A stretch of DNA of 46,195 nucleotides from contig JAADFN010000124.1 of assembly GCA_013152895.1 (NCBI GenBank), forward strand, positions 1-46,195, read 5' to 3'. Both the position numbers and the translations under genes were made by a program. Position 1 is the stretch's first letter; each line of letters begins with the position of its first letter. Below the pieces are notes generated by a model. That model had not been told where the DNA came from. It did no database searches and saw nothing but the letters and a program-made list of their open reading frames with translations. Positions 9,786-44,336 of the stretch are shown here, in pieces. Origin of the DNA: Acidobacteriota bacterium. GTDB lineage: Bacteria; Acidobacteriota; Thermoanaerobaculia; Thermoanaerobaculales; Sulfomarinibacteraceae.

Positions 9786-9870
9786 CACATCTCCCCCTTC
9801 CGGACACGCGGCCTTGGCAGTATTCTACCGGTACTACGAAACGGAGTGGCGAAAGGTTCAGGACCGGGGC

Positions 9871-9899
9871 AAAAAAACGGGGCGGCCGAAGCCGCCCCG
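9871..9899 (-). terminator. Rho-independent terminator of the pyruvate:ferredoxin oxidoreductase gene
   Basis: On the minus strand, a perfect 9-bp stem (CGGGGCGGC with GCCGCCCCG) with a TTCG tetraloop is followed directly by seven T residues. It lies 29 bases after the stop codon at 9928. This is the clearest intrinsic terminator in the window. Confidence 0.93.
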
Positions 9900-9927
9900 C
9901 CGTGATCGTGCTTTCGCGCCGGACGGC

Positions 9928-13500: not shown

Positions 13501-13870
13501 GAATACCTCCTCATGGTGGTTCCACGACGGACCCAGCAGTTGTTGGAACAGAAAGACGTCGAAGCCGCCACATCCATGATGAGTGGCTTCTCCCCTGTAG
13601 CATAGGTTCCGGGCGCTCCGATGGCAAGGGCCAGTTTCTCGTCGAAGGCGGCGCTTTCGCTCAGAATAGAATACACTTGGGTGTGATTGTGGATGCGCAT
13701 GCAGAACCGGCATTGCCGGCCGATTGGTTGTAACTGGTGAACCGCCGGGATGAGGAGCTCCATCATGAGACCCAGCTTTCCATCGCGGGTCACGTCGAAG
13801 AACCCTGGCCAGGCGCAGGTCCAAGGCGCGCGCCCTCGAAGGGGGGCGGGCGCCGCCTTCAGGGTGACCG
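13501..13870. other. 370-bp divergent intergenic region
   Basis: Separates the minus-strand pyruvate:ferredoxin oxidoreductase gene from the plus-strand CheR gene and should hold promoters for both. Apart from the ribosome-binding site at the nifJ end and a short palindrome CCGGC-ATT-GCCGG at 13707-13719, I see no convincing -35/-10 pair or operator. The AT-rich patch around 13665-13690 is the likeliest core promoter area. Confidence 0.4.
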
Positions 13871-15442: not shown

Positions 15443-15846
15443 CCCCCCGGCCGTGGCTCGCGCCACGGCCCGTAGGCCGCCACCTCCCAACTTCAACCCA
15501 AGATGAGTGATTCTCACCGGCGATCTGCACCACTCTCTCGCGCTCTGGACACGTGCGACGATGCTCGACATACCTCCGGGTATGCCTCCGCTCGTCGCAC
15601 GCACCAGAGCATCACGACCGTGGCACACCTCATCCGGCAGAATCGCTCATCTTGGGTGTCACTGTCATCGCACGTCGTGGTGCGGCCGCACCTCCCTTGT
15701 TCGTCCGCAGACGTGGCGCCACTCCCGGGACATGACGGTGCTCAGGATGACAGGAGGGAACGGGCTTTCGGCTGGTCAGGGGGCGCAGTGCGCCGGATGC
15801 CGCCGGTCTTGCGGCGTCCGCAACGATTCGGCGTTCCCGTGCGGGC
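15443..15846. other. 404-bp intergenic region holding a 160-bp repeat
   Basis: Lies between the convergent ends of the CheR and the cyclic-nucleotide-binding genes. It holds the first copy of the 160-bp element (15497-15656). The remaining 190 bases have no recognisable gene or T-run terminator. Confidence 0.6.
15497..15656. repeat. 160-bp self-complementary dispersed repeat, copy 1
   Basis: The ends are inverted copies: CCCAAGATGAG at the left, CTCATCTTGGG at the right. Inside, GCTCTGG (15542) pairs with CCAGAGC (15604), GTGCGACGA (15553) with TCGTCGCAC (15592), and CATACC with GGTATG around the apex. The whole unit can fold into one long interrupted hairpin. The second copy at 19928-20087 has exactly the same length and about 11 mismatches by eye; bases 15541-15614 are identical. 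There is no coding capacity. Confidence 0.85.
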
Positions 15847-24630: not shown

Positions 24631-24652
24631 CGGGCGGCCCGGGGAGGTGCGC

Positions 24653-25894
24653 ATGGCAAGACGGCCGGGGATCCGGCTTCGCGCCAAGGATCAGCTGACA
24701 GAGATCATGGCATCCTACTTCTCGGGCCTGGGGCAGGCCGACCGGGAGGGCAGGCCCGTGGCCTGGTGTACCAGCGTGGGTCCCGCCGAGCTCCTGAGGG
24801 CCATGGGCTTCGAGGTGTACTTCCCGGAAAACCACGGCGCCATGCTCGGCGCGACCCGAACGGCGGAACATGTCATGCCCCTGGCCCACTCCCAGGGCTT
24901 CTCGCCGGACATCTGCTCCTACCTGACGAGTGATATCGGCGCCTTTCTCGCGGGGATGACCCCCCTCACGAAATCCCACGGACTTGCCCACGTTCCCATG
25001 CCCGCAGTCCTGGTCTTCAATACGAACCAGTGCCGGGAGGTCAAGGACTGGTTCACGTGGTACGGCCGGAAGCTGGGTGTTCCCGTCCTCGGCATCCATT
25101 CTCCCCGGGGCCTGGATGCGATCGACGCCGAGCTCGTGGCATACGTCGCCGGCCAGCTCCGCGTTCTCAAGGATGACCTCGCCCCCATCGCTCCGGTTCC
25201 CTTCCATCTCCAGGCCCTGCAGAGGACCATGGCTCTCAGCAAGCAAGCCAGCGTGCTCTGGCGGGAGTGCCTGGAAACGACCGCGGCCTCTCCCGCCCCC
25301 TGGACCTTCTTCGACCACACGATCCACATGGCGCCCATCGTGGTATTGAGGGGAACCGAAACGGCGGTGAGTTACTACAGGAGTCTGCTCGAGGAGCTCC
25401 GGGCTCTCGCTTCCACGGGACAGGGAGCGGTGCCCGGCGAGAGGTTCCGGATCTACTGGGAGGGGATGCCCATCTGGGGTCGCCTGCGTGCGCTCTCGGA
25501 GCTCTTTTCAGAGCGCGGTGTGGCCCTCGTGGCTTCCACCTACTGCAATTCGTGGATCCTGGAGGGCCAGGACCCTCAGGACCCGTGGACCAGCATGGCG
25601 GAGACCTATCTCTCCATTTTCATCTGCCGCTCGGAAGCGTTCAAACAGGCCTACATCATCGAGAAAGCACGGGAGCTCACGGCAGGGGGGTTCGTTTTTC
25701 ACGACTCCAAGACCTGTCCCCACAACACGAACTCGCGCTTCGGCATGCCCCAGAGGATTTGCAAGGCCACGGGCCTCCCGGTCCTGGTCCTCGAAGGGGA
25801 CCTGAACGATCCCAGGTGCTTTTCCCTGGAGGAGGCCCGGGTTCGCATCGAGGTTCTCCTGGAGCAGATGGAAGAACAGGAAGGCGCGCCGTGA
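24653..25894 (+). CDS. BcrB/HgdB-like 2-hydroxyacyl-CoA dehydratase/benzoyl-CoA reductase family protein (second system)
   Basis: 413 residues of the BcrC/BadD/HgdB family, whose members hold an iron-sulfur cluster that receives low-potential electrons from an ATP-driven activator. C39 (AWCTS), C88 (DICSYL) and C355 (DSKTCPHN) are the likely cluster ligands; six other cysteines are present. It resembles the BcrB of this window (40788-42077) in length and in segments such as RGTE...YYRSL and VALVASTY. It is encoded singly with one activator, as in E. coli YjiM/YjiL or double-cubane-cluster proteins, rather than as two unequal subunits. It may be a reductase or dehydratase for a related aromatic or hydroxyacyl-CoA. 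GGGGAGG before ATG 24653 sets the start. The next gene overlaps its stop. Confidence 0.88.
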   Translation: MARRPGIRLRAKDQLTEIMASYFSGLGQADREGRPVAWCTSVGPAELLRAMGFEVYFPENHGAMLGATRTAEHVMPLAHSQGFSPDICSYLTSDIGAFLAGMTPLTKSHGLAHVPMPAVLVFNTNQCREVKDWFTWYGRKLGVPVLGIHSPRGLDAIDAELVAYVAGQLRVLKDDLAPIAPVPFHLQALQRTMALSKQASVLWRECLETTAASPAPWTFFDHTIHMAPIVVLRGTETAVSYYRSLLEELRALASTGQGAVPGERFRIYWEGMPIWGRLRALSELFSERGVALVASTYCNSWILEGQDPQDPWTSMAETYLSIFICRSEAFKQAYIIEKARELTAGGFVFHDSKTCPHNTNSRFGMPQRICKATGLPVLVLEGDLNDPRCFSLEEARVRIEVLLEQMEEQEGAP

Positions 25895-26683
25895 CGGTGG
25901 CGTGCTACGGGGGAGTGGACGTGGGGAGCGCCTACACCAAGGCCGTTGTGACCAGCGGCAGGGGCGAGGTGCTGGCTTTCGCCGTTCTTCCGACGGGCTT
26001 GGACATGGGTGGTGCGGGCACCCGGGCCCTCGCGGAGGCTTGTGAGAAGGCGGGCATCACGGTGCAGGAGCTCCACGGCCTCGTGAGCACGGGCTACGGC
26101 AGGGACGATGTGGCCGAAAGCGACTGGACCCGAAGCGAGATCCTCTGCCTTACCAAGGGAGCGTTCGCGCTGATGGGACGCGCCATGACGGTGGTGGATA
26201 TCGGGGGGCAGGACAGCAAGATCGTCTTTCTGGACGAGCGGGGCGCCCGTACGGACTACAGGATGAACCGGAAGTGCGCGGCGGGTACGGGTGCTTTCCT
26301 GGAGATCATCGCCATGCGGCTTGGAGTGCCGTTGAACGAGCTGTGCGAGCTTGCCGAACGGACCGAGGAATGGGCGCCGCTCGGTTCTTTCTGCTCGGTC
26401 TTTGCGGCCACGGAGGTGCTGGATCTCCTGCGCCGGGGCTACGGCCTGGAGGCCATCGCCCGGGGGGTCTACCGTTCCGTGGCCCATGATCGACATGGGT
26501 GCGAGAGGTCCCATTTTGGCCATGGCTGGCGGCGTGGTCGAGCACCATTCCGTCTTGGTGGAGGTCGTTCGGGAGATGATACAGTGTGAAGTGGTGAAGC
26601 TTCCTCACCCTCAGTACGCCGTTGCACTGGGCGCGGCCGTCTTGGCGAAGGAAAAGGAATCCGCCAGGACGATCGAGTCTTGA
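25891..26683 (+). pseudogene. BcrD/HgdC-like activator ATPase of the second system, split by a frameshift
   Basis: ASKHA-fold ATPase that would reduce the preceding protein at the cost of ATP. GGVDVGSAYTKAVV is the phosphate-1 motif and VDIGGQDSK the phosphate-2 motif. The bridging [4Fe-4S] cysteines C129 (KCAAGTG) and C168 (GSFCSVF) are 39 apart, the same spacing as in BcrA and BcrD here. The frame is normal from GTG 25891, which overlaps the previous stop as GTGA, to about 26480 (GVYRSVAH). The rest (IDMGARGPILAMAGGV to the end at 26683) is one frame over. Restoring the frame gives a normal protein of about 263 residues. I see no slippery site. It is either an assembly indel or an inactivating mutation. 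Confidence 0.85.
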
Positions 26684-28511: not shown

Positions 28512-28570
28512 GCGACACGGGGAAACGCGCTCGAAGCGTGATCCCGTCAAGAGAAATGGAGGTAGTTGGA

Positions 28571-29614
28571 ATGGCCATGTTTGAATCGCGACCGGCGGAA
28601 AGTTTTGGCTTCCAGGAAGTGGGGTACGAGAAGAAGGATTTCGTGGCCAGGATTACGATCCGCAGGCCGCATAATTACAACGCATACTCCACGCCCGCCC
28701 TCAAGGAGCTGGCGACCGCCTTCACCGACGCGTCCGAAGACGACCGTGTGGCCGTCGTCGTATTCACGGGGGAGGGCGACCGGGCCTTCTGCACCGGCGG
28801 AGACGTGAAGGAGTACGAGCGTGAGTACACCTCCAGGCCCAGGGATTACTGGAAGTACATGGGCCTGTTCAAGGCGTACATCGAGAGCATCATGAACAAC
28901 GGGAAACCCACCATCGCGAGGATCAACGGTATGGCCGTGGGCGGTGGCAACGAGTCGCTCATGGCCTGTGACCTCGCGGTGATGGCCGAGCACGCCATCA
29001 TCAGCCAGGTGGGAACCAGCGTGGGGTCGGTGGCGTGCGGCGGAGGGACCCAGTGGCTCCCCCTCCTCGTTGGGGACAAGCGTGCACGGGAGATCCTCTT
29101 CTTAAACGAGCGGATCTCGGCGGCAAAGGCGCTCGAATGGGGGCTCGTGAACTGGGTCGTTCCCTCCGTCACCAAGGACGGTGAGTTCATCGAGGGAGCC
29201 TCCCAGGAACAGATCGCCCTCGCCCGCAAGGGCGCCGACGGATACGCCATTGACCTGACCATGCTGGACAAAAAGGTGGACGCTATCTGTGCCAAGATCA
29301 TCGACAAGTTCCCGGAGTGCGTCAGGTATACCAAGCAGCAGGTGAACTTCTGGAAGGACCTGGCATGGCACAACACGATCGGTCACGCCCGTGACTGGCT
29401 CTCCATCCACTACTGCTCGTGGGAGCCCATCGAAGGCATGGGCGCCTTCGTGGAGAAGCGCAAGCCAAGCTACCGGATGCTGAGAGAGCGGGCGGCCGAG
29501 GGGAAATCGAGCGAGTTTCCCTGGGGCGCTCCCAAGGCCTCCTGTCCCTCCTGCGGCGCCAAGAACCTGCCCGAGGATTTCACCTACTGCGGCGCCTGCG
29601 GAGCGAAGCGATGA
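28571..29614 (+). CDS. oah: 6-oxocyclohex-1-ene-1-carbonyl-CoA hydrolase (ring-cleaving) with C-terminal zinc ribbon
   Basis: 347-residue crotonase-family enzyme that hydrates and cleaves 6-oxocyclohex-1-ene-1-carbonyl-CoA to 3-hydroxypimelyl-CoA, opening the ring. The stretch INGMAVGGGNESLMACDL, then GTSVGSVACGGGTQWLP and LEWGLVNWVVP, is the signature used to recognise Oah/BamA. After residue 315 the chain continues into C325-x2-C328...C340-x2-C343, a zinc-ribbon knuckle pair. I do not know this addition from the characterised enzymes. ATG 28571 was chosen because GGAGGT lies seven bases upstream. The stop overlaps the next start as ATGA, coupling it to the SDR. Confidence 0.93.
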   Translation: MAMFESRPAESFGFQEVGYEKKDFVARITIRRPHNYNAYSTPALKELATAFTDASEDDRVAVVVFTGEGDRAFCTGGDVKEYEREYTSRPRDYWKYMGLFKAYIESIMNNGKPTIARINGMAVGGGNESLMACDLAVMAEHAIISQVGTSVGSVACGGGTQWLPLLVGDKRAREILFLNERISAAKALEWGLVNWVVPSVTKDGEFIEGASQEQIALARKGADGYAIDLTMLDKKVDAICAKIIDKFPECVRYTKQQVNFWKDLAWHNTIGHARDWLSIHYCSWEPIEGMGAFVEKRKPSYRMLRERAAEGKSSEFPWGAPKASCPSCGAKNLPEDFTYCGACGAKR

Positions 29615-31667: not shown

Positions 31668-32438
31668 ATGTCGGAATACGAATTTGTCCGCACGGAGGCC
31701 AGCGACGGGCTCTTGGAGATCACCATGGCCCGGCCACCGTTGAACATCCTGAACGCGCCCATGATGGCGGAGCTCACGGGCGCCTTCGAAGCCGCCGAGA
31801 GGGACCGGGATGCCAGGGTTCTTCTCCTGCGGGCGGAGGGGAAAGTCTTCTCGGCCGGGGCGGATATCGACGAGCACCGTCCCGGCAAGGCAAAGGCCAT
31901 GATCGAAGCCTTTCACGGCATGTTCCGCGCGCTTCACCGCGTCCCCTATCCGACCGTGGCCTACGTCCACGGCGCTGCACTCGGCGGGGGATGCGAGCTG
32001 GCCATGGGGTTCGACATGGTCCTCGCCGGCGAACGGGCCAAGTTCGGTCAACCGGAGATCGGGCTCGGGTTCCTGCCGCCGGTTGCCGCGGCCCTTCTTC
32101 CAGCCATCTCGGGCTGGAGCAGGGCCATGGACCTGTGTTGCTCGGGCAGGCCGTGGACGGCCCGGGAGGCGCTGGCGAACGGCCTGGCGCTCAGGGTATT
32201 CTCCGGCGAAGACGCAGAAGAAAGCCTGAAGGCGTTCCTGGCGCCGTTCCTCAAACGCAGCCCGCTGATCCTGAGGCTCGTAAAGAAGGCCATGCGGGGA
32301 GAAGGAGACGGCGGGTTTTCTTCCCGCCTCGACGCCGCCGAGCGTGTCTTTCTCGAGGAGCTCATGGTCACCAAGGACGTGCTGGAGGGGCTCTCCGCCT
32401 TCGATGAAAAGCGTGATCCCGACTGGAAGAACGAATAA
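31668..32438 (+). CDS. dch: Cyclohexa-1,5-diene-1-carbonyl-CoA hydratase
   Basis: 256-residue crotonase-family hydratase that adds water to the cyclic dienoyl-CoA made by benzoyl-CoA reductase, giving 6-hydroxycyclohex-1-ene-1-carbonyl-CoA. E110 (GGGCELAM) and E130 (GQPEIGLGFLPP) are the catalytic-site glutamates, 20 residues apart. The combination of ADIDEHRPGKAK, a following MIEAFHGMFRALH helix and FLPPVAAALLP is what I associate with Dch rather than general enoyl-CoA hydratases. It lies five bases before the molybdenum-enzyme maturation genes. Gene-family identity is strong; the exact substrate rests on context. Confidence 0.88.
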   Translation: MSEYEFVRTEASDGLLEITMARPPLNILNAPMMAELTGAFEAAERDRDARVLLLRAEGKVFSAGADIDEHRPGKAKAMIEAFHGMFRALHRVPYPTVAYVHGAALGGGCELAMGFDMVLAGERAKFGQPEIGLGFLPPVAAALLPAISGWSRAMDLCCSGRPWTAREALANGLALRVFSGEDAEESLKAFLAPFLKRSPLILRLVKKAMRGEGDGGFSSRLDAAERVFLEELMVTKDVLEGLSAFDEKRDPDWKNE

Positions 32439-32443
32439 CCACC

Positions 32444-33079
32444 ATGGGAAGACACGATTCCGACCGGGGAGACACACCACTGATCGCGGGCATTCTGCTG
32501 GCTGCGGGTCAGTCCAGGAGGATGGGACGCAACAAGCTGCTCCTTCCCTTCGGGGACGTGCCACTTGTCGCGCACGGGTTGGCGGCGCTGGCATCCTCTT
32601 CGGTTCACCCCGTGGTGTGCGTGCTCGGCTGGCAGGCCGGAGCCGTCCGGAAGGCCGTGGAAGGCGTCTTCCCCGACGGCCGCGTGACCTTCGTGGTGAA
32701 CCGACGTTTCGGGGAGGGCAGGTCCACCTCCATTCAAGCCGGGCTCGCCGCACTGCCGGATGGCGCCAAGGCGGCCCTGTTTCTTCCCGCCGATGTGCCC
32801 CTCGTCCGGGCGAAGGACGTGGACGCGGTCGCAGACCGGTACCGGCGGACCGCAGCGACCATCGTGGTCGCGGTCGGGCGATGCGGGGAGCTGAGCCACC
32901 CGGTGCTCTTCGCGAGAGCCTGCTTCCCGGAGCTCATGGCCCTTGTGGGGGACGTGGGGGGCCGGCGCCTGATCCGGGCGCGCTGGGGAGACGTGGAAAA
33001 GGTTTCCCTCCCCGGCCCCGAGCCCTTCGACGTGGACACCCCGGGCGACTATCAAAGACTGTTGGAGCACGGAGCATGA
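32444..33079 (+). CDS. mocA: MocA/YgfJ-type molybdenum cofactor nucleotidyltransferase
   Basis: 211-residue NTP-transferase of the MobA-like fold. LAAGQSRRMGRNKLLLPFG is the nucleotide-binding motif and FLPADVPLV carries the metal-binding Asp. MocA-type proteins attach CMP to molybdopterin to make the cytosine dinucleotide cofactor used by molybdenum hydroxylases; YgfJ homologues accompany selenium-dependent ones. Here it begins a maturation trio (this gene, xdhC, yqeB) followed within 2 kb by the hydroxylase itself. The stop overlaps the xdhC start. Alanine- and valine-rich composition and length are normal. Confidence 0.9.
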   Translation: MGRHDSDRGDTPLIAGILLAAGQSRRMGRNKLLLPFGDVPLVAHGLAALASSSVHPVVCVLGWQAGAVRKAVEGVFPDGRVTFVVNRRFGEGRSTSIQAGLAALPDGAKAALFLPADVPLVRAKDVDAVADRYRRTAATIVVAVGRCGELSHPVLFARACFPELMALVGDVGGRRLIRARWGDVEKVSLPGPEPFDVDTPGDYQRLLEHGA

Positions 33080-33840
33080 CAACACTGTACGAGCGCCTCC
33101 CCCGGTTTCTTGCCGAGCACGGTTCCCTGGTGCTCGCCACCCTGGTCGAAACAAAGGGTTCCGCCCCAAGGCATGTCGGCGCCAAGATGGTCGTCTTCCC
33201 CGATGGAACGGTGGCGGGGTCCCTCGGCGGCGGAGCCCTGGAAAAGGCGGTCATCGAGGACGCCTTGGCGCGTCTTGAGGCGCGAGCTCCGGCCCTTCTC
33301 ACGTACGATCTCACGGAGGGAGGAATCGGCATGAAGTGTGGTGGCAAGGTGCGCGTCTACGTGGAGCCCGTGGTTCCGGCCAGGCGCCTGGTCATCTTCG
33401 GCGCGGGACACGTGGGGAAGGCCCTCGCCGCAATCGCCGTGCGCACCGGGTTCGCCGTGGAGGTCGTGGACGACCGGGCGGACGCCCTGGATCCGGCGTC
33501 ATATGCAGAGGGGATCAGGCTCCTGAAAACGGATGCTGCCTTCGAGGAAGGATACACCCCGCCCGGACCCGCTGACTTCGCCGTGGTGCTCACCCGCGAC
33601 TTCGATACGGACGCAGACATCACCGGGCGGCTGGCCGGGGCGTGCGCATACCTGGGAGTCATGGGCAGCGCCGCCAAGTGGAGGCACATTCGAAAGAACC
33701 TGGCAGAACGAGGCACGCCGGAGGACCTGGTGGCGAAGGTGCACTGTCCCGTGGGACTGGATATCGGGGCGGACACGCCGGAGGAGATCGCCGTGAGCAT
33801 CCTGGCCGAGCTTCTCTCGGTGCGTGCCAAGGCCCGGTGA
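33076..33840 (+). CDS. xdhC: XdhC-family molybdenum hydroxylase maturation protein
   Basis: 254 residues. The N-terminal XdhC/CoxI domain (ATLVETKGSAPRHVGAKM, then GSLGGGALE with the conserved GG) is followed by a C-terminal Rossmann domain with LVIFGAGHVGKAL. XdhC proteins bind molybdenum cofactor, aid its sulfuration and deliver it to xanthine-dehydrogenase-family apoenzymes. The presence of this gene implies the hydroxylase downstream needs a terminal sulfur (or selenium) ligand on Mo. It overlaps mocA by four bases and ends 12 bases before yqeB. Confidence 0.94.
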   Translation: MTTLYERLPRFLAEHGSLVLATLVETKGSAPRHVGAKMVVFPDGTVAGSLGGGALEKAVIEDALARLEARAPALLTYDLTEGGIGMKCGGKVRVYVEPVVPARRLVIFGAGHVGKALAAIAVRTGFAVEVVDDRADALDPASYAEGIRLLKTDAAFEEGYTPPGPADFAVVLTRDFDTDADITGRLAGACAYLGVMGSAAKWRHIRKNLAERGTPEDLVAKVHCPVGLDIGADTPEEIAVSILAELLSVRAKAR

Positions 33841-33852
33841 GCCGATTCACCC

Positions 33853-34692
33853 ATGAGACCCAAGGCAGTGGTGCGGGGAGGTGGAGACCTGGCCACGGCG
33901 GCCGGCCGGCGGCTTCACGTGTGCGGCTTCGACGTGATCCACCTGGAGGCGCCCCGCCCCACGGTCATTCGGAGGGAAGTTTCCTTTGCTTCCGCGGTCT
34001 ATCGCGGAACGATCACCGTGGAGGGCCTCACGGCGCGCCTCGCCGGCGACACCGTGGAGGCCGGGAAAATCCTGGCCGGCGGCGAGGTGGCCGTTCTCGT
34101 GGATCCGGGCGCGACGAGCGTCCCCGTCCTGCGTCCCATCGTGGTCGTTGATGCCATCATGGCCAAGGGACGATGGCAGCTGGAGAACCCAACCAGGATG
34201 GGCTGGGCCGAGTGCGTGGTGGCGCTCGGCCCCGGTTTCGAGGCCGGTGTGGATGTCCACTACGTCGTGGAGACCTGCAGGGGTCACTTCCTGGGTAAGG
34301 TATATACTGAAGGCGAAGCTCTCCCCTTCACGGGTGTACCGGGAAGCGTTCTTGGTGTCTCCCTGGAACGGATTCTCAGGGCTCCCAACGAGGGCGTCTT
34401 CGATCCCCTCAAGGATATTGGAGATCTCGTGACGGAGGGCGAAACGGTCGCGCGGGTGAGCGGTGAGCCGGTTCGATCGGCCGTTTCAGGAGTACTGAGG
34501 GGGTTGCTGCATGGAGGGCTCGACGTGATGAAGGGCCAGAAGGTGGGAGACGTGGATCCCCGTTGTGTGAGGGAACACTGCTTCACGATCTCGGACAAGG
34601 CCAACGCGGTTGCCGGAGGGGTGCTCGAGGCGGTTTTCCGCGGTTGTGCTCACCGTTGGGTTCGGGAAGGTTCAGCGGGAGACCGGGGCTGA
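33853..34692 (+). CDS. yqeB: YqeB/EF2563-family selenium-dependent molybdenum hydroxylase maturation protein
   Basis: 279 residues beginning VVRGGGDLATAAGRRLHVCG, then LEAPRPTVIRREVSFASAVY and GTITVEGLTARL, the recognisable core of the YqeB/EF2563 family. Comparative genomics (Haft and Self) ties this family to molybdenum hydroxylases with a labile selenium cofactor. Its biochemical step is not settled, but selenium transfer or insertion is presumed. The C-terminal half contains an RSAVSGVLRGLLHGG segment of the same family. No SelD or YqeC gene is in the window, so the selenium link rests on this gene alone. It is separated from the dehydrogenase that follows by 72 bases. Confidence 0.88.
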   Translation: MRPKAVVRGGGDLATAAGRRLHVCGFDVIHLEAPRPTVIRREVSFASAVYRGTITVEGLTARLAGDTVEAGKILAGGEVAVLVDPGATSVPVLRPIVVVDAIMAKGRWQLENPTRMGWAECVVALGPGFEAGVDVHYVVETCRGHFLGKVYTEGEALPFTGVPGSVLGVSLERILRAPNEGVFDPLKDIGDLVTEGETVARVSGEPVRSAVSGVLRGLLHGGLDVMKGQKVGDVDPRCVREHCFTISDKANAVAGGVLEAVFRGCAHRWVREGSAGDRG

Positions 34693-34764
34693 CAACATCG
34701 CTCCACGCCGTTCAGGCCGCGTGACGGGCCGGGGTGTGAGGGCCATGACTTGCGGAGGATAACG

Positions 34765-35802
34765 ATGAAAGCGGCAGTATTTCACGGATCGGGACGACCC
34801 CTGACCATCGAAGAGATTCCCACTCCGGAGGTGGGACCCGGGGAGATCCTCCTGAAGGTGGCTGCCTGCGGGGTATGCCACACGGACCTCCACTACATCG
34901 ACCACGGCGTGCCGACGGTCAAGGCCCCACCCATGGTCCTGGGGCACGAGCCCTCCGGTATCGTCGCGGCGGTCGGTCCCGGCGTGACCTCCTTCAAGGA
35001 GGGGGACAGGGCTCTCCTCCCCGCCGTCTATTCCTGCGGCGTGTGCAGGGCGTGCCGGGAGGGCCGGGAGAACATCTGCGCCTCCATGGTGATGTTCGGT
35101 AACCACGTGGACGGCGCCTACGCGGAATACGTGAAGGCCCCCGCCAAGGATACCTTTCACCTCCCCGACGAGATTCCGCTCGAGGAAGGATCCATCATCG
35201 CAGACGCAACCTCCACCCCGTTTCACGCGGTGGTCAACCGGGCAAAGGTGCGTCCCGGCCAGTCGGTGGTGGTTTTCGGGTGCGGTGGCGTGGGCATCAA
35301 CGCGGTGCAGATCGCGGCCGCCGTCGGCGGCGCGGTCATCGCCGTGGACCCCGTCCCCGAGAAGCTCGCCCTGGCCAAACGTCTCGGGGCGGTGGCAACG
35401 TTGAACCCCACCGAGGTGGAGAACGTTCCCAAGGCCATCCGAAAGCTCACCGGAGGCGGGGCCGAGATCGCCATCGAGGCGATCGGGAAACCGGCCGTGA
35501 TGAGCCAGGCCTTCAACAGCCTGGTGACGGGCGGCCGCCTGGTGGTTATCGGGTACAGCCCGGACATGCTCACCATCAAGGCCGGCAAGATCATGTTCCA
35601 GGAGCTGGAGATCATCGGTTCCCTGGGGTGCCGGCCGGTGGATTACCCCCGCCTCATCGAAATGGTCCGCCAGGGGAAGATCAAGGTGAAAGAGCTGGTT
35701 ACCGGGCGCTTCCCCCTCGAACAGATCAACGAGGCCTTCGACCTCCTCAGGGAAGGCCGGCCGGACGTGGTGCGCTCCATCATCGTGCCGGCCATGGGCT
35801 AG
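34765..35802 (+). CDS. had: Zinc-dependent alcohol dehydrogenase, probable 6-hydroxycyclohex-1-ene-1-carbonyl-CoA dehydrogenase
   Basis: 345-residue medium-chain dehydrogenase. Catalytic zinc ligands lie in CGVCHTD and LGHEPSG; the structural zinc site is [15 protein letters not shown]; the NAD-binding motif is [13 protein letters not shown]. The segment [19 protein letters not shown] and the following [11 protein letters not shown] resemble Had of Thauera, which oxidises the hydroxy group made by Dch with NAD+. It lies between the Mo maturation genes and the Mo enzyme, so a role with that enzyme's product is an alternative. ATG 34765 was chosen for the GGAGG six bases upstream. The specific substrate is inferred. 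Confidence 0.72.
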
Positions 35803-35812
35803 GGAGATATCG

Positions 35813-36706
35813 ATGGGACTGCCCCAGCTCACCGTTGAGGTTCCCCGTACCTTGGGCGAGGCCCTCGCTCTCTTGCGAGAACGGGGTGAGGGGACCATGC
35901 CCATGGCCGGGGGAACCGACCTCGTGGTGCAACTGAAGCAGGGGACGAAACGCCCGCGGACGATCGTGTGCCTGTCCAAGGTTGCCGAGCTTGCCGGTGT
36001 GCGCGAGACGGAGGATGGATCCATCGCCGTTGGCGGCGGAACCACCATCGCCGCCCTGGAATCCGACACCCTTCTCCTGGAAAGGGCGCCGGGGGTCGTG
36101 GACGCCGCCCGGGGCATGGCCACCGTGCAGGTTCGCAACCGGGCCACCGTGGCCGGCAACCTGGCGACCGCCGCGGCCTGCGCCGACCTCCCACCCATCC
36201 TGACCGCGCTGGGCGGAGTCGTTTCGGTGGCCTCCTCCGGGGGCTCGCGCCGCGTGGCCGTGGAGCGATTCTTCACCGGCGCAAGGACAACGGTCCTCGC
36301 GCCCGGGGAGCTCATCATCGAGGTGATTCTCCCGCCGCGCCAAGCGGGGTCGGGCTCCGCGTACGAGAAACTCGGCTACCGGCGGGGGGCGCAGGTTGCG
36401 GTGGCTTCCGCGGCCGCGAGCCTCGTGCTGGAGGACGGCATCGTCCGCGAGTTGAAGCTCGTGCTGGGCGCCGTGGCGCCCATCCCCCTCGTGGTGCGGG
36501 GGGCGTCGGCACTGGTGGGGCATCCCCCGGAAGGTGACACGCTCGAAGCGGCCTGCTCGGCGGCCGCCCGGGAGTGTCATCCCATCTCCGACATCCGTGG
36601 GAGCGAGGCCTACCGGCGGGCGGTGGTGGCCGTGGCTTCCCGCAGGGCTATCCTGAGGGCGGTTCGCAGGGCGGCGACGGGGACGTCGATGGGAGGCCGC
36701 CCATGA
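35813..36706 (+). CDS. Molybdenum hydroxylase FAD-binding subunit
   Basis: 297-residue FAD subunit of the xanthine-dehydrogenase family, passing electrons between the iron-sulfur clusters and an external carrier. FAD signatures are AGGTDL (32-37) and TVAGNLATAAACADLPP (around 112-128), with the CO_deh_flav_C domain after about 180. In 4-hydroxybenzoyl-CoA reductase this subunit has an insertion holding a four-cysteine [4Fe-4S] cluster beginning near residue 122. Here C123 is present but no insertion or other cysteines follow. The protein thus has the plain hydroxylase form. Its stop overlaps the start of the large subunit (ATGA). Confidence 0.93.
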   Translation: MGLPQLTVEVPRTLGEALALLRERGEGTMPMAGGTDLVVQLKQGTKRPRTIVCLSKVAELAGVRETEDGSIAVGGGTTIAALESDTLLLERAPGVVDAARGMATVQVRNRATVAGNLATAAACADLPPILTALGGVVSVASSGGSRRVAVERFFTGARTTVLAPGELIIEVILPPRQAGSGSAYEKLGYRRGAQVAVASAAASLVLEDGIVRELKLVLGAVAPIPLVVRGASALVGHPPEGDTLEAACSAAARECHPISDIRGSEAYRRAVVAVASRRAILRAVRRAATGTSMGGRP

Positions 36707-39531
36707 GCAAGCGGATGATCACCCTTCGCGTGAACGGAGGAATGGTGGAGGAAGCCGTGGAGGCCAACACCACCCTGCTCTCCTTCCTGCGGGACACGCT
36801 CAACATGACGGGGACCAAGCGGGGCTGCGGCGAAGGAGACTGTGGCGCCTGCACGGTCCTGATGGATGGGGCCCCCGTCAACTCGTGTCTCGTTCTTGCC
36901 GTCGAAGCCGATGGAGCTGCCATCACCACCATCGAGGGGCTGGCCGACAACGGCAAGCTCCATCCCATCCAGCAGGCTTTCGTGGACACCGGCGCCATTC
37001 AATGTGGATTCTGTACGCCGGGAATGATCCTGTCGGCCAAGGCGCTCCTCGACGCCAATCCCGATCCCTCCGACGAAGAGATCCAGCGGGGACTGGCGGG
37101 CAACCTCTGCCGCTGCACGGGCTACGTGCGCATTATCGAGGCGGTCAGGCGGGCGGCTCACCCCGATCGGCCGACCAAGGTCGAAGCCGGGGAAGGCAAC
37201 GGCGACTTCTCCGTTGTTGGCCGGAGCCTGCCCAAGAAGGACGCCCCCGCGAAAGCGTCGGGAAGAGCCGTCTACACGGCCGACATCCGGTTGCCGGGGA
37301 TGCTTCGTGGCAAGATCCTGGGGAGCCCCCATCCCCACGCACGGGTGCTTTCCGTGGATGCTTCCGAGGCCGAGGCTCTTCCCGGCGTGGTCGCCGTCGT
37401 GACGGCCGAGGACTTTCCGGACACGCCCTACGGAGTCAGCCCGGCACGCTACGACGAGCAGGTGCTGGCCCGGGACCGCGTTCGCCATATCGGTGACGAA
37501 ATCGCCGCGGTGGCCGCGGTGGACGAGGAGACCGCCGAGCGGGCCCTGTCCCTGATCAAGGTTGAATACGAGGTGCTCCCCGCCGTCTTCACGGTGGAGG
37601 AGGCCATGGCGGAAGGGGCGCCCAGGCTCCACGACAAGTACCCCGGTAACGTGAACACGGAGATCCACCAGGATTTCGGAGACGTGGAGGCCGCCTTCCG
37701 GGAAGCGTACCTGGTCCGGGAAGACGTGTTCCAGGGTCAGCGGACCATGCAGAACCCCATGGAGCCACACGTCTCCTTGGCGCAGGAAGAACCGGATGGC
37801 CGCATCACGTTGTGGACGGCAAACCAGTCTCCCCACCAGGTGCAGCACCAGATTGCCCGCGTGTTGAAGATGCCGAGGAGCTCCATCCGCCTCATCACGC
37901 CGGCCATGGGCGGCGGCTTCGGCGGCAAGGCCGAGACCACCACCCTGGACTTCTGCGCGGTCGCCCTGGCGCGCAAGGCCGCGCGGCCCGTCCTCATGGA
38001 ATACTCCCGCAAGGAGACCTACCTCCACGGGCGCGGCCGCCACGCCCAGACCGTTCGGTTGAAGACGGGCGTCAAGAAGGACGGCACCATCACGGCGGTC
38101 CACGCGGATATCCTCCTTGAAGGGGGCGCCTACACCTCCTACGGGATCATCACCGCCTACTACTCGGGCGTCATGCTCACCACCCCCTATCGCCTCCCCA
38201 ACTTCCGTTTCGACGGGCGGAGGATCTACACGAACCTGCCGGCGTGCGGGGCGATGCGGGGGAACGGAACGCCCCAGCCCAGATTCGCCTTCGAGAGCCA
38301 ACTGGATCTCATCGCGGCGGACCTGGGGATGGACCCCATCGAGCTGCGGCGCCGAAATGCACTCGGCCCCAACGAGGAGACCATCAACGACCTGGCAATC
38401 ACCTCGTGCGAATTCAAGCGCTGCCTCGACCTCGTGGAGGAGGAATCGGGCTGGCGAGCCAAGTGGGGCAAGCTGCCCCCGGGCAAGGGAATCGGCGTGG
38501 CGTGCGGCTGTTTCGTGTCGGGGGCGGGGTATCCCATCTACAGGGGAGACACGCCCCATTCCTCGGTGATCATCCGCTGGGGCGAGGACGGAGAAACCGC
38601 CACGGTCCTCTCGGGGGCCGCCGATATTGGCCAGGGGTCGGATACGGTTCTCTGCCAGATGGCCGCTGAAGAGCTGGGGCTGCCGTACCGCGACGTGACC
38701 ATCATCTCCACGGACTCGGCCGTCACCCCCTCCGACCTCGGCAGCTACGCCTCCCGCGTCACCTACATGGCGGGCAATGCCGCCCGGGATGCCGCGATAG
38801 ACGCGAGGCGGCAGGTCCTGGCAGCCGTTGCCAAAGCCTGGAAGATCCCGAGTGAATCGGTTTCCTTCGTCAACGGCGTCGTCTCCGCCGAGGGGCGCGA
38901 AGAGACCCTCAGCATCAAGGAGGCGGCCGCCCTTGCTTACCACACGGTGGGTCCCATCGTGGGCAGGGGGACCTATTCCCCGCCGAAGCTGGGTGGCAGC
39001 TTCAAGGGCGCGGCCGTCGGAACATCTCCCGCCTACTCCTTCTGCGCCCAGGTGGCCGAGGTGGAGGTCGACATGGAGACGGGCATCGTGCGCGTGACGG
39101 ACTTTTACGATGCCCACGACTCGGGAACGGTCATCAACCCGATGGCCCTGCACGGCCAGGTGGAGGGCAGCCTTGTCATGGGCATGGGCGAGAGCCTCTT
39201 CGAGGAGGTTGTTCATGCGGACGGGCGAATCGTGAATCCGAACCTGCACGATTACCTCGTGCCCACGGCCATGGACGTGCCCAGGGTCCACTCCCTCATC
39301 GCCGAGTCGTACGACCCCGCTGGCCCGTTCGGCGCCAAGGAAGTGGGCGAAGGCTCCGCGCTGCCCGTCATGGGCGCCGTGGCCAATGCCGTCGCGGACG
39401 CCATCGGGGTCCGTATCACGGAGCTTCCCATCACGCCGGAGAGGGTGCTCAAGGCCCTCGGCAAGCTTCCCGACGAGCCCGGCAAGCCGGGAGCTTCGAT
39501 GTGCTGCCAATGTCGCGAGGAGGAACCCTGA
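36703..39531 (+). CDS. Molybdenum hydroxylase, fused [2Fe-2S] and molybdopterin-binding subunits
   Basis: 942 residues combining two normally separate subunits. Residues 1-160 hold two [2Fe-2S] clusters: C42, C47, C50, C62 (plant-ferredoxin type) and C101, C104, C136, C138. From about 175 is the Mo domain: GGGFGGKAE (403-411), R519 in AMRGNG, DIGQGSD, and the catalytic glutamate E883 in AKEVGEG. The stretch VTPSDLGSYASRVTYMAGNA resembles 4-hydroxybenzoyl-CoA reductase alpha subunits, so dehydroxylation of a hydroxybenzoyl-CoA is plausible. The fusion, the partner lacking the extra [4Fe-4S] site, and YqeB nearby point to a distinct type. The C-terminus ends in an odd CCQC cluster. ATG 36703 overlaps the FAD-subunit stop. 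Confidence 0.92.
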   Translation: MSKRMITLRVNGGMVEEAVEANTTLLSFLRDTLNMTGTKRGCGEGDCGACTVLMDGAPVNSCLVLAVEADGAAITTIEGLADNGKLHPIQQAFVDTGAIQCGFCTPGMILSAKALLDANPDPSDEEIQRGLAGNLCRCTGYVRIIEAVRRAAHPDRPTKVEAGEGNGDFSVVGRSLPKKDAPAKASGRAVYTADIRLPGMLRGKILGSPHPHARVLSVDASEAEALPGVVAVVTAEDFPDTPYGVSPARYDEQVLARDRVRHIGDEIAAVAAVDEETAERALSLIKVEYEVLPAVFTVEEAMAEGAPRLHDKYPGNVNTEIHQDFGDVEAAFREAYLVREDVFQGQRTMQNPMEPHVSLAQEEPDGRITLWTANQSPHQVQHQIARVLKMPRSSIRLITPAMGGGFGGKAETTTLDFCAVALARKAARPVLMEYSRKETYLHGRGRHAQTVRLKTGVKKDGTITAVHADILLEGGAYTSYGIITAYYSGVMLTTPYRLPNFRFDGRRIYTNLPACGAMRGNGTPQPRFAFESQLDLIAADLGMDPIELRRRNALGPNEETINDLAITSCEFKRCLDLVEEESGWRAKWGKLPPGKGIGVACGCFVSGAGYPIYRGDTPHSSVIIRWGEDGETATVLSGAADIGQGSDTVLCQMAAEELGLPYRDVTIISTDSAVTPSDLGSYASRVTYMAGNAARDAAIDARRQVLAAVAKAWKIPSESVSFVNGVVSAEGREETLSIKEAAALAYHTVGPIVGRGTYSPPKLGGSFKGAAVGTSPAYSFCAQVAEVEVDMETGIVRVTDFYDAHDSGTVINPMALHGQVEGSLVMGMGESLFEEVVHADGRIVNPNLHDYLVPTAMDVPRVHSLIAESYDPAGPFGAKEVGEGSALPVMGAVANAVADAIGVRITELPITPERVLKALGKLPDEPGKPGASMCCQCREEEP

Positions 39532-40787: not shown

Positions 40788-42077
40788 ATGAGTGAAACCC
40801 CACGCATCGTCAAGGAGAAGAGCATGGTGGTCCAGAAGAAGATGCTGGCCGCCTACTACAAGGGCCTCGCTTCGACTGGAGAAACGGGACAGAAGGTCGT
40901 CTACACCTTCGTTCCGGGCAACCTGACCGAGCTCATCCTCTCCTTCGGCGCCCAGCCCGTCTACCCCGAGATCAATGCGCTCCAGTCCGGCATGCGGAAG
41001 AAGTCGATGGAGTTCATCCGGCAGGCCGAGAAGATGGGGCACTCGGAAGACGTTTGCACTTATGTAAAGTGCGATGTTGGCATGATGCTCAAGGGCAACG
41101 TGGGTCCCACGGGCGAGACGATTCCAGCTCCCGACCTCCTACTCTGCTCCTACACGGGGTGTTTCACCTTCATGAAGTGGTTCGAAAACCTGGCCAAGAT
41201 GTACGATTGCCCGGTGGTCATGCTCCACGTGCCCTACCGCTCCGCGGGAGAGGCGAGCCCGGCCATGGTTCAATACGTGGTCGATCAACTCAGGACCCGG
41301 GTCATCCCGGCGTTGGAGAAGGTCACCGGCAGGCCGTACGACGAGGAGCGGCTGCGGACCATGCTGGGCCTGGCGGCCCAGGCGGAAGACGACATGGTCT
41401 ACTGCTTCGAGAGCGCCAAGAACAGGCCATCTCCCATCGACGGGTACTTCGCGGGGGTGTACTACATCGGTCCCATCTTCACGGCATTCAGGGGCACGGA
41501 GGAATGCGTCACCTACTATCGAAGCCTCCGGGAGGACATCGACGAACGCATCGCCAGGGGTCTCGGCCCCATCACCCCGGAGGGTCAGATCGAGAAGGAG
41601 CAATACCGGCTCGTGGTGGAGGGGCCGCCCAACTGGACCAACTTCCGGGAGTTCTGGAAGCTCTTCTACGACCGGGGCGCGGTCGTCGTGGCTTCCACCT
41701 ACACCAACGTGGGGGGCAGCTACGACCTCGGGTTTCGGCACGATCCCGCCCACCCCCTGGAGACGATGGCCAGGTACTGCATGAGCTGTTATACCAACCT
41801 CAGCCTCCCCCAGAGGACAGCCGTGCTCTCGAACTACGTTCGCGACTACCACGCGGACGGTCTGCTGGTGAACTCCATCAAGTCCTGCAACTCCTTTTCC
41901 GCGGGCCAACTGCAGATGCTCCGGCGCGTGGAGGAGGAGACGGGTGTCCCCGTGGGCTTCATCGAGTCGGACCTCGTTGACCCGCGCTATTTTTCCTACG
42001 CCAACCTGAAGAACAGGCTGGACTCCTTCTTCCAGATGCTGGACCAGAAACTCACACCGGGCGAATCGGACGCCTGA
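40788..42077 (+). CDS. bcrB: Class I benzoyl-CoA reductase subunit B
   Basis: 429-residue partner of BcrC. C90 and C95 (DVCTYVKCDVG) and C367 (SIKSCNSFS) are the probable cluster ligands. Other typical segments are LLLCSYTGCFTFMKWFENL and VVVASTYTNVGGSYD. It begins 10 bases after bcrC with AAGGA upstream and belongs to the same transcript. Compared with the single BcrB/HgdB-like protein at 24653, it has the extra cysteines expected of a true heterodimeric benzoyl-CoA reductase and fewer departures at the cluster site. Confidence 0.96.
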   Translation: MSETPRIVKEKSMVVQKKMLAAYYKGLASTGETGQKVVYTFVPGNLTELILSFGAQPVYPEINALQSGMRKKSMEFIRQAEKMGHSEDVCTYVKCDVGMMLKGNVGPTGETIPAPDLLLCSYTGCFTFMKWFENLAKMYDCPVVMLHVPYRSAGEASPAMVQYVVDQLRTRVIPALEKVTGRPYDEERLRTMLGLAAQAEDDMVYCFESAKNRPSPIDGYFAGVYYIGPIFTAFRGTEECVTYYRSLREDIDERIARGLGPITPEGQIEKEQYRLVVEGPPNWTNFREFWKLFYDRGAVVVASTYTNVGGSYDLGFRHDPAHPLETMARYCMSCYTNLSLPQRTAVLSNYVRDYHADGLLVNSIKSCNSFSAGQLQMLRRVEEETGVPVGFIESDLVDPRYFSYANLKNRLDSFFQMLDQKLTPGESDA

Positions 42078-42096: not shown

Positions 42097-43491
42097 ATGG
42101 ACCTGTACCTCGGCATCGATCTGGGCTCGACGACCTCCAAGGCGGTGGCCGTGGGGGAGGATGGGAGAATCCTGGGACGGGGAATCACCAACACGCGAAG
42201 CAACTACCGGGTGGCCTCGGATATCGCCCGGGAGGAGGCGCTGCACAACGCCCGTTTCGCCCACCTCGCCCGGGCCATGGAATCACGGGGGTATCCCGCT
42301 TCGCGGCACGAGGCGATCTACTCCGACCTCGCCCTCCACTTCCGTCTGGAGGGCTACCTGAAGAGGCTGGATGCCCTGGCGAGGGAATGCGAGCGGACCA
42401 ACGCCGCACTTTCCCCGGAAGAAGCCGTGCCGGGGGAGTGCCTGGCCGAGGTCTTCGAGATCCTGAGGAGGGAAGCACCGGCTACATTCGATCGCCAGGC
42501 CAGGAACGACAGCTCCAAGTTCTTTCGGGACATCGCCGGTACGGCCTTCGCCGACGCCGCGGAGGAGGTGTCCACCCGGTGGAAGCTCTCCTCGGAGCCG
42601 CTCGTGGCCATCTACGAGCGGTCCATCGTGCCGGCCGAGAACGATCGGATCGAAATGGACTTCGGAAGGAGCCTGACCTCCGCGTGCGCCCGCACCCTGG
42701 AGAACCACCCCGAGGAGCGGGAGAACAGCGGCTTTGTCAAAGCACTTGAAGATGCGACGAAGCAGGCGGTGGCACTGGACCTGGTGACGAAGGACATGGT
42801 GGGGACCGGGTACGGCCGCCAGCTCCTTCCCTTCCCGGAGGAAAGCATCCGGTCCGAGATTCTCTGCCACGGCCTGGGCGCCCACCGGATATTTCCCGAG
42901 ACACGGACGGTACTGGACATCGGGGGACAGGACACGAAGGCTATCCAGGTCAACGGTGAAGGCGTGGTCACCTCGTTTCACATGAACGACCGGTGCGCCG
43001 CGGGGTGTGGCCGGTACCTCGGCTACATCGCCGACGAGCTGGCCATCAGCGTGAAGGACCTGGGTCCCCTGGCCTGCAAGGCCGACAAGACCATCCGTAT
43101 CTCTTCCACCTGCACGGTCTTCGCGGGGGCAGAGCTGAGGGATCTCCTGAACTTGGGCGAAAAGAGGGAGAACATCCTCGCTGGCCTTCACCGGGCCATC
43201 GTTCTCAGGGCCTTTTCGCTGCTCGCACGATCCGGCGGCGTCCACAACGAGTTCACCTTCACCGGGGGAGTCGCCAAGAACGTGGCCGTGGTGCAGTATA
43301 CCCAGGAGATGGTGCGCAGGAACTACGGCGCCATCACCATGAACGTCCACCCGGATTCCATCTACATGGGTGCGCTGGGCGCTGCCCTCTTTGCGCTGAG
43401 GGCGGCTCGAGGAGAATCCCTGCCGGCGGCCGGCGTCGCCGAGCCGGACAGGTCAACCCGGGGAGCCCGCCGCATGGAGATCAAGGCATGA
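42097..43491 (+). CDS. bcrA: Class I benzoyl-CoA reductase ATPase subunit A
   Basis: 464-residue ASKHA ATPase. With BcrD it holds one [4Fe-4S] cluster between subunits and couples hydrolysis of two ATP to electron delivery into BcrCB. Phosphate motifs: GIDLGSTTSKAVAV near the N-terminus and VLDIGGQDTKAIQ near 275. Cluster cysteines: C300 (RCAAGCG) and C339 (SSTCTVF), 39 apart. An insertion of roughly 190 residues between the two phosphate motifs distinguishes the large BcrA-type from the small BcrD-type subunit. The electron donor should be reduced ferredoxin. Its stop overlaps the bcrD start. Confidence 0.96.
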   Translation: MDLYLGIDLGSTTSKAVAVGEDGRILGRGITNTRSNYRVASDIAREEALHNARFAHLARAMESRGYPASRHEAIYSDLALHFRLEGYLKRLDALARECERTNAALSPEEAVPGECLAEVFEILRREAPATFDRQARNDSSKFFRDIAGTAFADAAEEVSTRWKLSSEPLVAIYERSIVPAENDRIEMDFGRSLTSACARTLENHPEERENSGFVKALEDATKQAVALDLVTKDMVGTGYGRQLLPFPEESIRSEILCHGLGAHRIFPETRTVLDIGGQDTKAIQVNGEGVVTSFHMNDRCAAGCGRYLGYIADELAISVKDLGPLACKADKTIRISSTCTVFAGAELRDLLNLGEKRENILAGLHRAIVLRAFSLLARSGGVHNEFTFTGGVAKNVAVVQYTQEMVRRNYGAITMNVHPDSIYMGALGAALFALRAARGESLPAAGVAEPDRSTRGARRMEIKA

Positions 43492-44336
43492 ACCGGACCG
43501 ATGTGTACACCATGGGCGTGGACGTGGGTGCCAGCTCCGTGAAGACCGTGCTCATGAGCTACGGGTCCGGAGAGCACCCGGAGATTCTCTTCAAGGACTG
43601 CCGCAGGATGCGCCGGCGGAACCCCTCGGTCGTCGCTGACGAAAGCATGGAGGACGCCCTCTCCGTGGCGGGCCTCGAGCTCAAGGACATCGCCTACGTG
43701 GCGAGCACGGGCGAGGGGGAGATGGTGAAGCGCAAGCGGGGCCACTTCTACAGCATGACGACCCATGCCAAGGGGGCAGCCTTCCTGGTACCGGCGGCGA
43801 GGGCGGTCCTGGACCTGGGCGCCCTGCACGCGCGGGCGATGAAGATCAACGACGAGGCCCGGGTCCTGTCCTACCGGATGACGGGCCAGTGTGCTTCCGG
43901 CTCGGGGCAGTTCATCGAGAACATCACCCGGTACCTGGGCGTGAGCCTCAGCGAGGTCGGGGCCCTGTCCCTCCAGTCTGATCACCCCGAACGGGCGTCC
44001 TCCATCTGCGCCGTGCTGGCCGAAACGGACGTGATCAACATGGTGTCCCGGGGAGTCTCGACGCCCGACATCATCCGCGGTATCCACGAGTCCATCGCGC
44101 AGCGGTTGGTCAAGCTGCTCTCGGCCCTCAAGGCCGATTCACCCCTGGTGCTCACGGGTGGGCTGTCCCGTGACGCGGGAATGGTCGAGGTGATCCGAAG
44201 AAAGGTTGCGGAGGACGACCTTGGCTTGACGGTTCTCACCCACCCGGACGCCATCTATGCGGGCGCCCTGGGCGCCGCCCTCTGGGCCGGCTGGCGGCAC
44301 TTCAAGCTCCAGGAGAAAGCGTCCGCCGCGTCCTGA
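43488..44336 (+). CDS. bcrD: Class I benzoyl-CoA reductase ATPase subunit D
   Basis: 282 residues, the same length as I recall for Thauera BcrD. Motifs: MGVDVGASSVKTVLM, then AVLDLGALHARAMK at the second phosphate site. The cluster cysteines C135 (QCASGSG) and C174 (SSICAVL) are 39 apart. The second phosphate motif reads DLGALHAR where most activators have DIGGQDxK, as is common in BcrD. The ATG overlaps the bcrA stop (ATGA). It is the last gene of the plus-strand block, with only 14 bases to the convergent small winged-helix gene. Confidence 0.96.
   Translation: MNRTDVYTMGVDVGASSVKTVLMSYGSGEHPEILFKDCRRMRRRNPSVVADESMEDALSVAGLELKDIAYVASTGEGEMVKRKRGHFYSMTTHAKGAAFLVPAARAVLDLGALHARAMKINDEARVLSYRMTGQCASGSGQFIENITRYLGVSLSEVGALSLQSDHPERASSICAVLAETDVINMVSRGVSTPDIIRGIHESIAQRLVKLLSALKADSPLVLTGGLSRDAGMVEVIRRKVAEDDLGLTVLTHPDAIYAGALGAALWAGWRHFKLQEKASAAS

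Follow-up and report, generated by a model that had tools for sequence, protein, structure and literature searches.

A putative two-subunit hydroxybenzoyl-CoA dehydroxylase encoded with yqeB beside benzoyl-CoA reductase genes in an Acidobacteriota bacterium

Operon layout

The stretch of DNA analysed here (the window: 46,195 nucleotides, contig JAADFN010000124.1 of GenBank assembly GCA_013152895.1) is contig C124 of a 2.99-Mb Acidobacteriota draft genome with a completeness of 96.9%. On its plus strand it carries an operon of benzoyl-coenzyme A (benzoyl-CoA) genes that includes a molybdenum (Mo) enzyme of the xanthine oxidase family, made up of a flavin adenine dinucleotide (FAD) subunit and a subunit in which the iron-sulfur (FeS) and Mo parts are fused. 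The gene order is oah-like, short-chain dehydrogenase, thiolase, dch-like, mocA, xdhC, yqeB, had-like, FAD subunit, fused FeS-Mo subunit, bcrC, bcrB, bcrA, and bcrD, with intergenic gaps of -4 to 82 bases from dch to bcrD. The starts of xdhC (33076) and bcrD (43488) were re-read for these distances; the profile scans had begun at 33070 and 43473, respectively. Loci are numbered with L and genomes with G below (G000 is the window's genome; L005, L142, and L147 lie in G496, G313, and G206, respectively). The features are as follows:

28538-29614, +: Oah/crotonase-like gene (6-oxocyclohex-1-ene-1-carbonyl-CoA hydrolase-like); top model TIGR03200, 220.8 bits, below its cut-off of 464.45
31668-32438, +: Dch-like enoyl-CoA hydratase (dienoyl-CoA hydratase); top model TIGR03189, 159.1 bits, below its cut-off of 292.5
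32444-33079, +: mocA-like nucleotidyltransferase (molybdenum cofactor cytidylyltransferase); TIGR03310, 137.2 bits, below its cut-off of 186.45; PF12804
33076-33840, +: xdhC-like Mo-cofactor insertion chaperone; PF02625 and PF13478; its ATG overlaps the mocA stop
33853-34692, +: yqeB, selenium-dependent Mo-cofactor maturation family; TIGR03309, 315.7 bits (cut-off 220)
34750-35802, +: Had-like zinc alcohol dehydrogenase; top model TIGR03201, 245.6 bits, below its cut-off of 338.65
35813-36706, +: FAD subunit without the four-cysteine [4Fe-4S] insert; PF00941 and PF03450; best PDB match CutM
36703-39531, +: fused subunit of 942 residues, two [2Fe-2S] clusters plus Mo part; TIGR03194, 979.7 bits; 1rm6_A, 614.6 bits
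39614-40777, +: bcrC, benzoyl-CoA reductase; TIGR02263, 462.9 bits (cut-off 421.15)
40788-42077, +: bcrB; TIGR02260, 651.8 bits (cut-off 486.55)
42097-43491, +: bcrA; TIGR02259, 485.8 bits, below its cut-off of 578
43488-44336, +: bcrD; TIGR02261, 329.8 bits (cut-off 312.85)

Three of the four bcrCBAD models are thus over their cut-offs. A preliminary description of this DNA had placed mocA, xdhC, yqeB, an FAD subunit, and a fused subunit between dch and bcrC. Profile matches at 32444-39531 (+) bear out this gene content, but not the direct succession of yqeB and the FAD gene: the had-like gene at 34750-35802 intervenes. No such gene interrupts the pair in the relative L005, where the FAD gene comes straight after yqeB.

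The molybdenum subunit groups with HcrA

The large subunit had been described as resembling the alpha subunit of 4-hydroxybenzoyl-CoA reductase (HcrA), and this likeness is upheld by structure and tree comparisons. The Mo part scores 979.7 bits against the HcrA model TIGR03194, slightly under its cut-off of 994.55, with the next model at 586.5, that is, 393 bits behind. Its best match among solved structures is HcrA (1rm6_A), at 614.6 bits over the whole length, followed by an aldehyde oxidoreductase at 358.8. The N-terminal part holds eight cysteines (42, 47, 50, 62, 101, 104, 136, and 138) that correspond to two [2Fe-2S] clusters.

Three Mo-domain trees were built, with 41 rows, 42 rows, and 42 rows in a careful search; L014 (the same place as L056) was left out of all of them, and L140, L149, L022, and L017 were left out of the careful tree. 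The window falls inside a clade with HcrA in all three (support 100/100 in the careful tree, from which the following values also come). This clade consists of two groups, one fused (100/99) and one of separate-subunit forms that includes HcrA itself (100/97), and within the fused group the window, L005, and G239 are placed together (97/93). The preliminary description had named clustering with purine or xanthine enzymes, in the absence of aryl-CoA activity, as one of two outcomes that would speak against its reading; the trees instead separate the window from these, leaving Escherichia coli XdhA and XdhD and the yqeB-linked L098 outside the HcrA clade, along with L099 and L100 where included. 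Some of the outside rows are long-branched, and the branching order among them is unsure.

Eleven positions are common to all readable rows of the 17 fused-clade loci (window included) and 18 separate-subunit rows, and occur in at most one of the 16 outside rows (gaps and X excluded). HcrA Tyr326 and Glu723 are among them. Tyr487 of the window corresponds to Tyr326 and Glu883 to Glu726, both of which we take to be residues lining the active site of HcrA; all 15 fused-clade rows that reach the Glu726 column have Glu there. The window thus keeps Tyr326, Glu723, and Glu726, and its assignment as an aryl-CoA enzyme is well supported. Four positions differ consistently between the fused and separate forms.

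Three observations on the relatives may be added. Gln replaces the catalytic Glu726 in 13 separate-subunit HcrA-like proteins (L148, L149, L151, L153, L055, L056, L015, L018, L022, L017, L028, L038, and L057), which form one subclade and may not be ordinary dehydroxylases; the remaining 36 rows reaching this column have Glu. In-frame stops in eight relatives (L043-L050; seven TGA and one TAG) were considered as selenocysteine codons and rejected, as they mark the boundary between distinct gamma and alpha genes. Finally, L114:5138-8798 of Sinorhizobium meliloti, among the nearest plasmid-borne relatives (approximately 43% identity), lies near amidohydrolase and UbiD/UbiX-family genes.

Two architectures within the HcrA clade

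The fused subunits and the missing extra cluster of the preliminary description were both confirmed: the FeS and Mo parts form a single 942-residue frame, and in the FAD subunit the four-cysteine stretch that holds the extra cluster in separate-subunit relatives is missing. The best PDB match of this FAD subunit is the M chain of carbon monoxide dehydrogenase, and its similarity to HcrB is confined to two stretches.

The 17 fused-clade loci were set against the 18 rows with separate subunits, which represent 17 distinct places. At 15 of the 17 fused-clade loci a single frame holds both FeS and Mo parts; at the other two (L041 and L152) a contig end leaves a partial Mo frame in which the fusion itself is not visible, their place in the fused clade being given by the tree. 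None of the 15 readable fused-clade FAD subunits has the insert, whereas all 17 readable separate rows do, each with four or more cysteines (16 distinct places; for L156 none was in reach). In three separate rows (L155, L156, and L017) the Mo frame has no FeS part, and an FeS gene was not found in the available stretch. Fusion and absence of the insert coincide wherever both can be read, and the split amounts to one change on the tree; the distribution of yqeB over the fused clade takes three. Both architectures occur in one genome, G128 (L041 and L057). The fused enzymes that lack the insert make up a separate lineage, and this build is not a hallmark of the selenium type.

Benzoyl-CoA genes near the fused enzyme

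Benzoyl-CoA pathway genes lie near the fused enzyme at eight of the 17 fused-clade loci, the window counted. At L139, L140, L141, L142, and L143 (genomes G149, G189, G423, G313, and G346) such genes, at least dch, adjoin the enzyme, and L142 has bcrC, bcrB, and bcrA on the same stretch. Oah (TIGR03200) lies beside it at L039 (G012; 568.2 bits, cut-off 464.45) and L040 (G014; 397.6 bits, at a contig end). The neighbourhood of L152 holds a dehydrogenase, xdhC, and mocA only, and L144 shows distant bcr-like matches. With the window's genes as queries, no benzoyl-CoA genes were found near L123, L145, L146, L147, or L154; the stretches of L005 and L041 are short. At the genome level, BcrC over its cut-off was found in eight of 15 other fused-clade genomes, compared to one of nine separate-subunit genomes. 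An earlier publication describes benzoyl-CoA genes in Krumholzibacteriota, an uncultured phylum (PMC10936416; this and the other papers given by PMC number are cited for excerpts).

L147 (G206) carries a different setting. At 8062-15783, xdhC and yqeB are followed by the FAD and fused FeS-Mo genes, with an aminotransferase-like gene (assigned by eye) and with mocA on the other strand; an indolepyruvate oxidoreductase-like fusion lies at 552-2861, and no bcr was seen in L147. By its neighbours, this enzyme perhaps acts on a different aryl substrate.

In the window itself, a second 2-hydroxyacyl-CoA dehydratase/benzoyl-CoA reductase-like D component (PF06050), then an activase-like ATPase, lies upstream of the module at 24647-26589. 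Ten long plus-strand frames scanned in the left part of the window gave CheR and TPR matches only.

YqeB and selenium

The window's YqeB groups with the YqeB of Mo-hydroxylase loci and of E. coli, on the far side of a branch with a support of 100 from a clade of paralogs. The use of any YqeB match as a selenium marker was rejected: the 26 rows of the paralog clade score around the TIGR03309 cut-off and thus carry a risk of over-calling selenium. The window's own genome has such a paralog (L096:9545-10420, G000:C89), with kin in family f1 and order f2, beside a patatin-like gene and with pgsA nearby. No window-like Mo subunit was found near the five paralog copies inspected (L096 and L101-L104).

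Within the fused clade, the yqeB of L005 adjoins the enzyme, is 62-63% identical to the window's, and falls in the same tree clade. That of G206 also adjoins the enzyme (311.8 bits). The YqeB of G239 is located elsewhere in the genome (345.4 bits), and that of G349 is in two contig-end pieces (204.5 and 131.1 bits). The YqeB of L147 (the G206 copy), G239, and G349, which the YqeB tree did not include, were judged genuine by score, G349 less surely. In the window's genome, a PF20256 search found a single Mo hydroxylase, leaving yqeB with no other visible client. The predicted YqeB structure, built from two sequences (mean predicted local distance difference test score 34.4), was uninformative.

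Two genes, selD and yqeC, had been proposed as a check on selenium use, and the lack of selD from a complete genome had been named as the other outcome that would count against the preliminary reading. SelD was found in the window's genome (361.8 bits), whereas YqeC was not: TIGR03172 gave no match at E ≤ 0.001 in this 96.9% complete draft (the model does detect YqeC in G002). The SelD sequence lies within an 802-residue frame (L058:336-2744, G000:C112) whose N-terminal half is cysteine desulfurase-like by eye, a possible desulfurase-SelD fusion. In G002, consecutive genes at L097:25-3567 encode an amidohydrolase, a fused MocA-YqeB, and YqeC, which by gene content would be a purine-type selenium cluster.

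Enzymes with labile selenium on Mo are known for purines and nicotinate, and the route of selenium insertion is stated to be unknown (PMC11448449). Judged by its gene context, selenium use by the window's enzyme is plausible.

Proposed function and alternatives

Our favoured reading, to which we give an even chance, is that the module encodes a two-subunit Mo hydroxybenzoyl-CoA dehydroxylase that supplies benzoyl-CoA reductase and is probably matured with selenium in the window's lineage. The FAD and fused FeS-Mo genes would yield an enzyme that strips the ring hydroxyl from hydroxybenzoyl-CoA, most likely 4-hydroxybenzoyl-CoA. The substrate would be bound at Mo, water released, and benzoyl-CoA passed to the BcrCBAD reductase, driven by adenosine triphosphate (ATP) and encoded alongside. 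In this pathway BcrCBAD is followed by Dch, Had, and Oah. Two electrons would run from FAD through the two [2Fe-2S] clusters to Mo. MocA would produce the cytosine-dinucleotide cofactor and XdhC would load it; during this loading YqeB, drawing on selenophosphate made by SelD, would put selenium in place of the exchangeable sulfur on Mo. Since the [4Fe-4S] insert is absent, reduced nicotinamide adenine dinucleotide (NADH) would be a likelier donor than ferredoxin. Ferredoxin is the donor of the classical reductase, and NADH that of the urolithin C dehydroxylase (Ucdh) of Enterocloster bolteae (PMC12771579). Of this scheme, the sequence itself establishes the domains, the fusion, the lack of the insert, the place in the tree, the conserved residues, and the operon; the substrate, the direction, the electron donor, and the selenium are inferred.

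In its narrower form, the proposal is of a selenium-dependent reductive aryl-CoA dehydroxylase with an NADH-driven two-subunit core free of [4Fe-4S], in which yqeB would mark the branch of the window, L005, and G239 and, separately, G206 and G349; we advance this more tentatively, at a little under even confidence.

A number of results weigh against the favoured reading. The TIGR03194 score is slightly below its cut-off, and a search of one further genome from the window's genus, the only one covered, did not recover the enzyme at E ≤ 1e-100. Sub-threshold BcrC-like matches (273-371 bits) occur in four of the nine separate-subunit genomes. BcrC-like matches in the other yqeB-bearing fused-clade genomes tested are all below the cut-off (150 and 153 bits in G206 and G239, 268 bits in G349), so that yqeB and BcrC over its cut-off occur together only in the window's genome among the fused-clade genomes tested (that of L005 was outside this set). 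For 12 of the 17 fused-clade loci, genuine YqeB was not found in the genome (several are incomplete), and the same fused enzyme stands in similar operons there. SelD was matched at E ≤ 1e-40 in 134 of 147 relatives, and in all 22 compared genomes whether yqeB was present or not; together with selB in the window's genome, which points to a selenocysteine system, this means that selD adds little and does not discriminate for a selenium-Mo enzyme. The failure to find YqeC counts in the same direction, as a survey covering over 5,200 genomes, in the part cited, accepted solely YqeB plus YqeC as the selenium-cofactor signature (PMC5029168). Lastly, G089 (75% complete) has genuine YqeB (324.8 bits) without a SelD match at E ≤ 1e-40.

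In an alternative that we consider rather less probable, the same two-subunit dehydroxylase would carry an ordinary sulfido ligand and YqeB would be a general Mo-cofactor maturation factor independent of selenium. The operons of genomes where YqeB was not found, the missing YqeC, and G089 all fit it, as do the paralog clade, with its five inspected copies away from any window-like Mo subunit, and the E. coli proteins, where YqeB and XdhC are one chain; an XdhC-like chaperone role of YqeB has been discussed (PMC2997495). However, the operon already has XdhC and MocA, which by gene content suffice in yqeB-less relatives, and in the first survey, in the part cited, every TIGR03309 protein belonged to a selD-positive genome (PMC2276186). 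In Clostridioides difficile, moreover, loss of yqeB had effects on xanthine and uric acid resembling those of selD loss; loss of yqeC had no obvious phenotype in the excerpt cited (PMC11448449).

It is unlikely, although the ring position cannot be fixed by sequence, that this hydroxybenzoyl-CoA-type enzyme has another substrate or direction, such as 3-hydroxybenzoyl-CoA, another hydroxyaryl-CoA, or hydroxylation of an aryl-CoA ring. The four positions that distinguish fused from separate forms and the G206 module, beside an indolepyruvate oxidoreductase-like gene and not bcr, are in favour of such a difference, but the enzyme retains the residues that distinguish the HcrA clade and the product of the neighbouring genes has benzoyl-CoA as its substrate. 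A selenium-dependent xanthine or purine dehydrogenase in the operon by chance is highly improbable: the mocA-xdhC-yqeB content is like that of purine loci, but TIGR03311 reaches 553.9 bits on the Mo subunit (cut-off 830.45) against 979.7 for TIGR03194, and the tree sets the window apart from XdhA, XdhD, and the yqeB-linked L098, L099, and L100.

The preliminary description had proposed a selenium-containing aryl-CoA enzyme feeding benzoyl-CoA reductase. Its aryl-CoA part stands, on the tree, the residues, the operon, and the context of the relatives; its selenium part is no more than plausible.

Novelty and significance

Among the matches listed in the open-licence literature, titles and abstracts describe neither the fused form nor a link of selenium or YqeB to hydroxybenzoyl-CoA reductase, and PMC13101534 makes no mention of molybdenum, xanthine, XdhC, YqeB, hydroxybenzoyl-CoA, or selenium.

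If the favoured reading is true, the chemistry of labile selenium on Mo would extend from purines and nicotinate to reductive dehydroxylation; we know of no earlier enzyme of this kind acting on an aryl-CoA in the reductive direction. Since the same enzyme occurs both with and without yqeB, nature would offer a comparison of selenium and sulfur at one active site. Selenium aside, the insert-less two-subunit lineage raises the question of whether the classical [4Fe-4S] cluster is needed for the reaction or solely for electron uptake from ferredoxin.

Comparison with known systems

The class I benzoyl-CoA reductase BcrCBAD, encoded by the adjacent genes, would be the downstream partner of the window's enzyme. 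With the selenium-dependent Mo hydroxylases (those for purines and nicotinate, and E. coli xdh/yqeB), the window shares a xanthine-oxidase-family enzyme by genuine yqeB, mocA, and xdhC, and a fused FeS-Mo subunit like that of XdhD. It differs from them in that its Mo domain is in the HcrA clade, YqeC was not found in its genome, its operon is for aromatic compounds and not purines, and its selenium is putative. Ucdh is, like the window's enzyme, a reductive dehydroxylase of the xanthine oxidase family (in the window, putatively so) with FAD and two [2Fe-2S] clusters, and its closest characterized kin is 4-hydroxybenzoyl-CoA reductase (PMC12771579). This likeness is by description only; Ucdh has three separate subunits, a substrate that is not a CoA thioester, and 32.7% identity to 4-hydroxybenzoyl-CoA reductase (PMC12771579).

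The closest of these systems is HcrABC of Thauera aromatica (PDB 1rm6 and 1sb3), which the window resembles in its Mo subunit (614.6 bits over the whole length), in Tyr326, Glu723, and Glu726, in two [2Fe-2S] motifs, and in having an FAD subunit. It is set apart from HcrABC by the gamma-alpha fusion, the lack of the [4Fe-4S] insert, the adjacent mocA-xdhC-yqeB genes, and its position in the sister group of that of HcrA. As separate subunits and the extra cluster are the two defining features of 4-hydroxybenzoyl-CoA reductase that it lacks, the window's enzyme is best described as a sister architecture of this reductase and not as a strict member.

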